Below, one piece after another: positions 3,560 to 7,609 of a stretch of 44,828 nt of DNA. Source of the stretch: Paraglaciecola sp. (GTDB lineage Bacteria; Pseudomonadota; Gammaproteobacteria; Enterobacterales; Alteromonadaceae); assembly GCF_030730205.1 (NCBI RefSeq), contig NZ_JANQVQ010000166.1, forward strand, positions 1-44,828, written 5' to 3'. Position 1 is the stretch's first letter; the number at the start of each line of letters is the position of its first letter. Under the pieces are notes generated by a model. That model had not been told where the DNA came from. It searched no databases and saw nothing but the letters and a program-made list of their open reading frames with translations. The translations under genes and the position numbers were made by a program.

Positions 3560-4216
3560 TTAAGGAGTAATTAGGCCTCTCTGATAGCTCTGCTCGGTAA
3601 TGATCTTGTTTAATCGCAAAAATGTCGAAAACGTTGAATCAACTAATACTTTATTGGCAAGCCAGGTTGGCACTTTGCCAGAAGCATTACCTGAACCTTG
3701 ATACGATATTCTGACTAGCTCTTGGGATAATTGCGTCACAGTCCACAAGCCGCGAATATGAGTCATACGCACAGTGTTATTTTGTTCAGGGTACTGCTGA
3801 CCTGCATCTGTTACTTCTATGAAAATAGAGTCCGCATTAACCTTGGTCACTGATTGAATAACCATATCCCGGTTTTGTAGTGGCCACGGCGCAGCAAAAG
3901 TACTTCTTACTATTTTAGTATTTGAAGTAGCTCCCGCTAGTACTTTTACCTCTAAGCAGTTGTCTATCCATTCAGGGGCGTTGGCTGTGTCATCTAACAA
4001 TGCCAGTAAAGAAGCGCTTGACGCTTTGACTACCGTTGTTGCTTTCACTTCTTTTTCGGCTTGCTTCTCGCTGTTTTCGACCAATTGACGACTTGAAATC
4101 TGGGTTTGTCCAGAAGATTTTTCTATTTGCCACTCTTGACTATGGGCGCTCATAACGAGACTAAAATACAACAGCAAAATCGCTATCTTACTGCTAAACG
4201 TGATTGTGCGTTGCAT
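3560..4216 (-). CDS. periplasmic START-domain (SRPBCC) protein
   Basis: A 218-residue protein with an N-terminal signal peptide (hydrophobic core to about residue 22, likely cut after AHS) followed by a START-like helix-grip domain. Recognisable family features are the WxxN-type segment around APEWIDNC, AAPWPLQNRDMV and the final long helix. START proteins bind lipids or other hydrophobic ligands; the exported bacterial forms have no settled function. The ATG at 4216 has AAGAGAG upstream; an earlier start at 4243 would extend past the signal peptide and lacks support. Its promoter region overlaps that of thrS on the other strand. Probably the first gene of the leftward group. Confidence 0.75.
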   Translation of the reverse strand: MQRTITFSSKIAILLLYFSLVMSAHSQEWQIEKSSGQTQISSRQLVENSEKQAEKEVKATTVVKASSASLLALLDDTANAPEWIDNCLEVKVLAGATSNTKIVRSTFAAPWPLQNRDMVIQSVTKVNADSIFIEVTDAGQQYPEQNNTVRMTHIRGLWTVTQLSQELVRISYQGSGNASGKVPTWLANKVLVDSTFSTFLRLNKIITEQSYQRGLITP

Positions 4217-4240
4217 CGGGTACTCTCTTATTTGTATAAT
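4211..4240 (+). promoter_or_regulatory. thrS promoter
   Basis: A perfect -10 TATAAT (4235-4240) with TTGCAT (4211-4216) 18 bp upstream. Transcription would begin near 4247, two bases before the first leader hairpin at 4249, which supports this placement. The same A/T-rich patch read on the minus strand offers a -10 for the divergent START-domain gene. Confidence 0.55.
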
Positions 4241-4248
4241 CACATTTT

Positions 4249-4267: not shown

Positions 4268-4282
4268 GTGTTATCTTAACAC
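4268..4282 (+). promoter_or_regulatory. candidate antiterminator hairpin
   Basis: GTGTTA (4268-4273), loop TCT, TAACAC (4277-4282) form a perfect 6-bp hairpin directly abutting mimic 1. Its right arm uses the same AACAC bases that form the left arm of the terminator at 4278-4301, so the two folds exclude each other. A role in attenuation is inference. Confidence 0.4.
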
Positions 4283-4301
4283 CCTAAAAGGGTGTTTTTT
4301 T
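4278..4301 (+). terminator. intrinsic terminator inside the thrS leader (candidate attenuator)
   Basis: AACACCC (4278-4284), loop TAAAA, GGGTGTT (4290-4296), with a run of seven T at 4295-4301. The T run is on the plus strand only and no plus-strand gene lies upstream that needs a terminator, so it should act on thrS leader transcripts starting near 4247. Confidence 0.7.
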
Positions 4302-4347: not shown

Positions 4348-4368
4348 GTGGCGCTTGGTAGGTGTCAC
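4348..4368 (+). promoter_or_regulatory. tRNA-Thr anticodon-arm mimic 2, translational operator of thrS
   Basis: A 7-bp stem GTGGCGC/GTGTCAC (two G-U pairs) closes the loop TTGGTAG, again U33, GGU, A37 in anticodon-loop register. The GGU is about 30 nt before the AUG and the stem ends about 8 nt before the Shine-Dalgarno TAAGGA. This is the position of the anticodon-like domain 2 of the E. coli thrS operator, where bound ThrRS blocks the ribosome. Confidence 0.65.
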
Positions 4369-4387
4369 CACTGCGTAAGGAATTTAT

Positions 4388-7580: not shown

Positions 7581-7609
7581 AAACGGCGAGCATGATGCTC
7601 GCCGTTTTT
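7581..7609 (+). terminator. intrinsic terminator after rplT
   Basis: A 12-bp stem, AAACGGCGAGCA (7581-7592) with TGCTCGCCGTTT (7596-7607), closes a TGA loop and runs into a T tract. It separates the ribosomal-protein unit from pheST, so pheS needs its own promoter within 7610-7771. That stretch holds a TAGAAT at 7705-7710 and a 6-bp hairpin GTATCT/AGATAC at 7727-7743, but no convincing -35. Confidence 0.9.

Follow-up and report, generated by a model that had tools for sequence, protein, structure and literature searches.

What does an intrinsic terminator do between the two anticodon-like arms of a thrS leader? The gene for threonyl-tRNA synthetase (ThrRS) is a textbook example of feedback on translation through tRNA mimicry, and in the operator of Escherichia coli two anticodon-like arms are bound by the ThrRS dimer. 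We analyzed a stretch of 44,828 nucleotides from a Paraglaciecola sp. (contig NZ_JANQVQ010000166.1; hereafter, the window), in which the thrS leader holds, in this order, a likely promoter, an anticodon-like arm (mimic 1), a terminator, and another anticodon-like arm (mimic 2). Besides this order, we observed conservation of the arrangement in relatives, a tRNA-like terminator stem, and a form in which terminator and mimic are fused. Control of termination by ThrRS is the most likely, though putative, purpose of the terminator, and we favor it because its stem copies the anticodon stem of tRNA-Thr(GGU) and because, in one other genus of the family (g11), the terminator is an anticodon-arm mimic.

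The terminator and its tRNA-like stem

The terminator consists of AACACCCTAAAAGGGTGTT followed by TTTTT, with a folding energy of −10.2 kcal/mol, and its hairpin can be read in two ways, with 8 bp around a 3-nt loop or with 7 bp around a 5-nt loop. The leader thus combines a GC-rich stem with a T-run, both downstream of the likely promoter. As a sequence element, the terminator at 4278 to 4301 is real, and it would be expected to end transcription in the cell. A reading made earlier from the letters of the window alone (the sequence-only reading) had called it a strong intrinsic terminator, which was borne out by the fold energy, by conservation, and by enrichment over shuffled sequences. The same reading had held that no plus-strand gene upstream needs a terminator, and the neighbor is indeed an open reading frame (ORF) on the minus strand.

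Conservation was assessed in the thrS leaders of 127 Alteromonadaceae genomes from 49 genera (seven of 117 family genomes with a match were left out of the leader set). Pattern matching found a CACC/GGTG stem with a T-run in 41 leaders from 11 genera, to which the terminator of the g11 genome G132, whose longer loop escapes the pattern, is additional. A short-hairpin detector applied to positions −200 to −50 reported 42 of the 127 leaders compared to 6 of 381 dinucleotide shuffles, and applied to −230 to −50 it reported 42/127 leaders compared to 10/1270 shuffles, while a detector of long hairpins gave little enrichment in the family (9/127 leaders and 13/381 shuffled sequences). In the genus of the window (g1), the terminator was present in 21 of 22 genomes. 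The main leader of the exception, G020, is unlike the others, but the terminator precedes its second thrS fragment. All 21 terminator-bearing congeners had a TATAAT 41 to 52 nt upstream of the CACC core of the terminator, and in 28 of the 29 leaders checked the nearest upstream ORF was divergent, being encoded on the minus strand (the 29th, from G036, has overlapping ORFs of 116 aa on the plus strand and 302 aa on the minus strand). Given the conserved upstream TATAAT and the divergent neighboring ORFs, the terminator is part of the thrS transcript. Separately, three leaders from Colwellia and its relatives (L068, L179, and L189) showed short GAGC...GCTC hairpins, with T-runs, a short distance past the likely promoter and lacked an evident anticodon-like arm.

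The stem core of the terminator, CACCC/GGGTG, is identical to the anticodon stem of tRNA-Thr(GGU). The tRNA arm itself, CACCCTTGGTAAGGGTG, was found in 94 of 108 family genomes, that of the window included, and ARAGORN named tRNA-Thr(GGT) at all 8 tRNA loci checked, the two other loci in that check being thrS leaders themselves. When the 22 congener genomes were searched for CACCCN{3,8}GGGTGTTTTTT, 13 of the 16 matches lay at thrS, and the stem sequence is therefore special to this place rather than a general terminator stem in these genomes.

In the four genomes of g11, the terminator hairpin at thrS carried an anticodon-like loop in three. The hairpin of G106 (leaders L156 and L223), CACCC-ATCGTAA-GGGTG, has 15 of 17 bases as in the tRNA-Thr(GGU) arm, that of G031 (L048) has 14 of 17, and that of G132 (L045) has an anticodon-like loop of 8 nt. 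A pattern for this fused form matched in 15 of 395 family genomes; by tblastn, thrS adjoined 3 of the 15 loci, all of them in g11, and the other 12 were not beside thrS.

Mimic 1, the operator, and the leaders of Pasteurellaceae

Mimic 1 (GCTCTG-ATGGTAA-CAGAGC, −8.9 kcal/mol) was found together with the terminator in 31 genomes from 8 genera by a strict search, with near forms of the pair in g15 and g30. Across these 31 genomes (24 distinct rows), the stem of mimic 1 covaries, with a score of 0.427 compared to 0.165 for shuffled alignments, a value reached by 0 of 500 shuffles. Loop base 34 is free (G in 19, C in 6, A in 4, and T in 2), as among tRNA-Thr isoacceptors, while GTA at positions 35 to 37 was a selection condition and does not count as evidence on its own. 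One alignment, A2, placed the 5′ arm of the terminator poorly and was left out of the counts. When the pattern of mimic 1 plus terminator was searched over 394 genomes of the order, with gaps of 6 to 36 nt and an intact mimic 1 only, the window itself was the single match; carriers with a longer gap (G029) or a decayed mimic 1 (G016) were missed by this pattern.

Some further features of mimic 1 were seen along the way. In a subgroup of the window's genus (L015, L017 to L021, and L023), a T-run follows mimic 1, which could act there as a weak first terminator, and the detector flagged mimic 1 as a terminator in 6 of the 22 congeners, G008 included. The mimic 1 loop of L003 (from G007), ATGATAA, shows the anticodon GAU of tRNA-Ile, whose stem is also CACCC/GGGTG; this is probably a single change that arose by chance.

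The remainder of the leader matches an E. coli-type thrS operator. Mimic 2 (GTGGCGC-TTGGTAG-GTGTCAC) has an NGU loop, as in operators of that type, and stands directly upstream of the Shine-Dalgarno-like AAGGA, with a second arm upstream. The ThrRS of the window is also of the E. coli type: it aligns with 1qf6, a synthetase of the E. coli kind, over residues 1 to 636 and keeps N575, R583, E600, and R609, which we take to be the anticodon-binding residues. By analogy with that operator, binding of ThrRS to the leader with a block of the ribosome is putative here. Judging from the position of the TATAAT, thrS transcription would start near 4246 to 4248. The coordinates are collected in Table 1.

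Table 1. Features of the thrS locus in the window.
Feature	Position	Strand	Basis or remark
thrS, threonyl-tRNA synthetase, 638 aa	4388..6304	+	E. coli-type ThrRS
Possible −35 element TTGCAT, 18 nt before the −10 element	4211..4216	+	Read from the sequence
−10 element TATAAT, likely thrS promoter	4235..4240	+	Conserved in terminator-bearing congeners
Mimic 1, hairpin whose 7-nt loop (ATGGTAA) has the shape of a tRNA-Thr anticodon loop	4249..4267	+	Covariation, 31 genomes
Alternative hairpin GTGTTA-TCT-TAACAC, judged not functional	4268..4282	+	−3.9 kcal/mol; 1/30 testable leaders
Intrinsic terminator, stem AACACCC/GGGTGTT (core CACCC/GGGTG) and T-run	4278..4301	+	Stem core equals tRNA-Thr(GGU) anticodon stem
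Mimic 2, operator arm before the Shine-Dalgarno, loop TTGGTAG	4348..4368	+	Sequence; present in relatives
Shine-Dalgarno-like AAGGA	4377..4381	+	Sequence
Divergent neighbor ORF, 227 aa from GTG, inner ATG start likely	3560..4243	−	ORF list

Elsewhere in the window, a strong hairpin (CGGCGAGCATGATGCTCGCCG) followed by TTTTT was read by eye at 7584 to 7609, between rplT and pheS, and was not reported by a simple scan. It suggests that pheST has either its own start or an attenuator.

Outside the family, thrS leaders of Pasteurellaceae often carry a terminator upstream of mimic 2. In a sample of 30 of the 45 matching genomes (L318 to L347), short terminators were found in 17 leaders compared to 2 of 300 shuffled sequences, in the same stretch as in Alteromonadaceae and with sequences unrelated to the Alteromonadaceae stem, and long terminators were found in 8/30 leaders compared to 6/300. 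Some of the stems include uptake-signal sequences. According to passages of one study of these signals (PMC1852404), paired uptake signals often form terminators in Pasteurellaceae, and the background is therefore above what the shuffles show. Arms resembling mimic 1 were detected in 23/30 leaders compared to 63/600 mono-shuffled sequences, although several of the 23 look spurious. In some leaders, L331 among them, a long uptake-signal stem is capped by a mimic-like arm and leads directly into a T-run.

Proposed ThrRS-controlled termination and its rivals

We propose, with a probability of roughly 0.4, that, beyond the known translational operator, the leader imposes a premature-termination checkpoint, which ThrRS would tune at the 5′ arm. 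Transcription would start just before mimic 1, and RNA polymerase would meet the intrinsic terminator within about 55 nt, so that the readthrough fraction alone would yield mRNA, with translation then controlled at mimic 2. ThrRS free of tRNA-Thr would most likely bind the emerging 5′ anticodon-like arm, mimic 1, and favor termination. In g11, with its fused form, the arm bound by ThrRS would be the terminator hairpin itself.

The sequence-only reading had put forward an RNA switch instead, in which a hairpin GTGTTA/TAACAC serves as an antiterminator and ThrRS, acting at mimic 1, biases which of the two folds forms. The letters of this hairpin are present: its 6 bp abut mimic 1, it takes five bases of the 5′ arm of the terminator, and its formation need not wait for the 3′ arm to be transcribed. 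A hairpin between the linker and the 5′ arm of the terminator also beat linker shuffles in the window leader (p = 0.02). However, at p ≤ 0.05 this was so in the window alone among 30 testable leaders (in this test, which assigned one pair of the alternative hairpin to mimic 1, 11 of 41 leaders were unscorable, 10 for want of a canonical mimic 1 and one because mimic 1 overlaps the terminator), and L003 and L033, the nearest relatives, did not show the hairpin. It is also the weaker fold, since mimic 1 with the terminator reaches −19.1 kcal/mol and mimic 1 with the alternative hairpin −12.8 kcal/mol, a gap of 6.3 kcal/mol. The linker from mimic 1 to the terminator can be as short as 5 nt or as long as 54 nt, a spread that argues against a switch of one fixed geometry. 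We therefore rejected the switch as drawn and regard this mechanism as improbable; the hairpin stands as a stretch of letters beside mimic 1, and the proposed choice between folds does not. Premature termination is still the likely role of the conserved terminator hairpin and its T-run. As no conserved, mutually exclusive antiterminator was found among the testable leaders, any effect of ThrRS would have to be direct.

The lack of such an antiterminator and the variable linkers also count against ThrRS-controlled termination, and several other findings do so as well. In 5 of the 21 terminator-bearing congeners (G001, G007, G015, G016, and G021), mimic 1 has a decayed or altered loop that fails the strict search while the terminator is kept, which argues against strict coupling. 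One g11 genome, G076, keeps the terminator without an anticodon loop. The CACCC/GGGTG stem is shared by tRNA-Ile(GAU), alone among 35 distinct tRNA arms of G014. A strict consensus promoter scan reported no promoter in the leader stretch, and the promoter assignment therefore rests on the TATAAT and its conservation. Finally, a FastTree tree built from 137 ThrRS sequences (g30, g35, and g45 not included) groups the placeable genera with mimic 1 and terminator (g1, g5, g9, g15, g16, g48, and, for g14, Bowmanella L062) in one clade (0.95), and these seven are therefore not independent cases. Since g11 branches outside that clade, beside Alteromonas-like genera though weakly supported there, and a CACCC terminator is also present in L064 from the Alteromonas-like group near g11, the terminator hairpin may be older than the present form of mimic 1. 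The main rival is a constitutive attenuator that cuts thrS transcription by a fixed factor regardless of ThrRS, leaves regulation to translation at mimics 1 and 2, and may release a short RNA that is inert or a ThrRS decoy. The terminators kept beside decayed or altered mimics, the variable linkers without a conserved alternative fold, and the terminators without an anticodon loop in G076 and in the Colwellia-like G120 all speak for it. Yet it leaves unexplained why the stem equals the anticodon stem of tRNA-Thr and why the terminator of g11 carries an anticodon loop, and we consider it rather unlikely, if still a serious contender.

The hairpin and its U-tract might alternatively serve translation, as a U-rich docking site for the ribosome (S1) that a linker hairpin between the operator arms holds in place, like the U-rich half of the bipartite ribosome-binding site of E. 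coli thrS, a possibility suggested by passages of PMC3858243. The U-tract does lie close to mimic 2 in g14 and g48. In g1, however, the hairpin ends 80 to 94 nt before the ATG (16 leaders measured), away from mimic 2; in all 41 pattern-matched leaders the T-run follows the GC-rich stem directly or within 3 nt, as a terminator requires; and in Pasteurellaceae unrelated stems precede the T-runs, so that docking appears unlikely. That the hairpin simply ends an upstream transcript, or insulates against readthrough, would be unremarkable given how common intrinsic terminators are, and in Pasteurellaceae the nearest upstream ORF is co-directional in 17/30 leaders. But in the other 13, where it is divergent, 10 still have a terminator, and this explanation is made very improbable by the divergent ORFs of Alteromonadaceae (28/29) and the conserved TATAAT upstream of the terminator. 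We give still less credit to attenuation by a leader peptide that starts at the ATG of mimic 1 and contains threonine codons. The window does hold a 10-codon frame with two ACA codons, ATGGTAACAGAGCGTGTTATCTTAACACCCTAA, but no evident Shine-Dalgarno precedes its ATG, and the ATG is missing from 13 of 31 mimic 1 loops; with no conserved short frame of threonine codons, the leader-peptide attenuator was rejected.

Relation to known regulatory systems

The leader resembles the E. coli thrS operator in its E. coli-type ThrRS, in the anticodon-like arm just before the Shine-Dalgarno, and in the second arm upstream. It differs in the terminator between the arms; the detector found none in the Escherichia leader L116. 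With the T-box leaders of Firmicutes it shares a link between tRNA and transcription attenuation of a synthetase gene, but a T-box binds tRNA, whereas the present leader imitates it. No Rfam family matched the window leader at gathering score and no T-box was among the weak matches, so that a T-box or another Rfam family was rejected as its identity; a match to AaHKsRNA82 was weak (23.9 bits, with a gathering score of 51.4 and an E value of 0.15). When this weak match was traced into Pasteurellaceae, an Rfam search of 8 loci gave no match, and thrS is absent from the main texts of two Actinobacillus sRNA papers.

Protein-dependent attenuation at a terminator, or next to one, is known for PyrR and for ribosomal protein L4 at the S10 leader. 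As with these, the gene product here binds RNA and the leader terminator stands beside the likely binding arm. Unlike them, the leader has no conserved competing structure, and its binding arm imitates tRNA and in g11 is the terminator. A general model in which RNA-binding proteins regulate themselves at a terminator palindrome has been drawn (PMC2965389, Figure 10a); the main text of that paper contains no occurrence of thrS and in one place refers to the threonyl-tRNA synthetase of E. coli, as a protein that regulates itself. The fused hairpin of g11 is what this general model, as presented there, would look like for ThrRS. Our search of titles and abstracts in the open-licence literature found no description of such a thrS attenuator.

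A wider proposal, which we consider less likely than not, is that ThrRS recognizes a terminator hairpin shaped like the tRNA-Thr anticodon arm, or such an arm adjacent to it, and so would end its own transcription as well as block its own translation. Such control may have arisen in the Alteromonas/Paraglaciecola lineage and perhaps again, with other terminator sequences, in Pasteurellaceae. If this is true, a terminator that copies the anticodon stem of a tRNA, together with the loop in one genus, would carry the mimicry known from thrS over to transcription, with neither a leader peptide nor a T-box involved, and the leader would offer a compact system, of about 60 nt and one protein, for direct tests of protein-dependent intrinsic termination.
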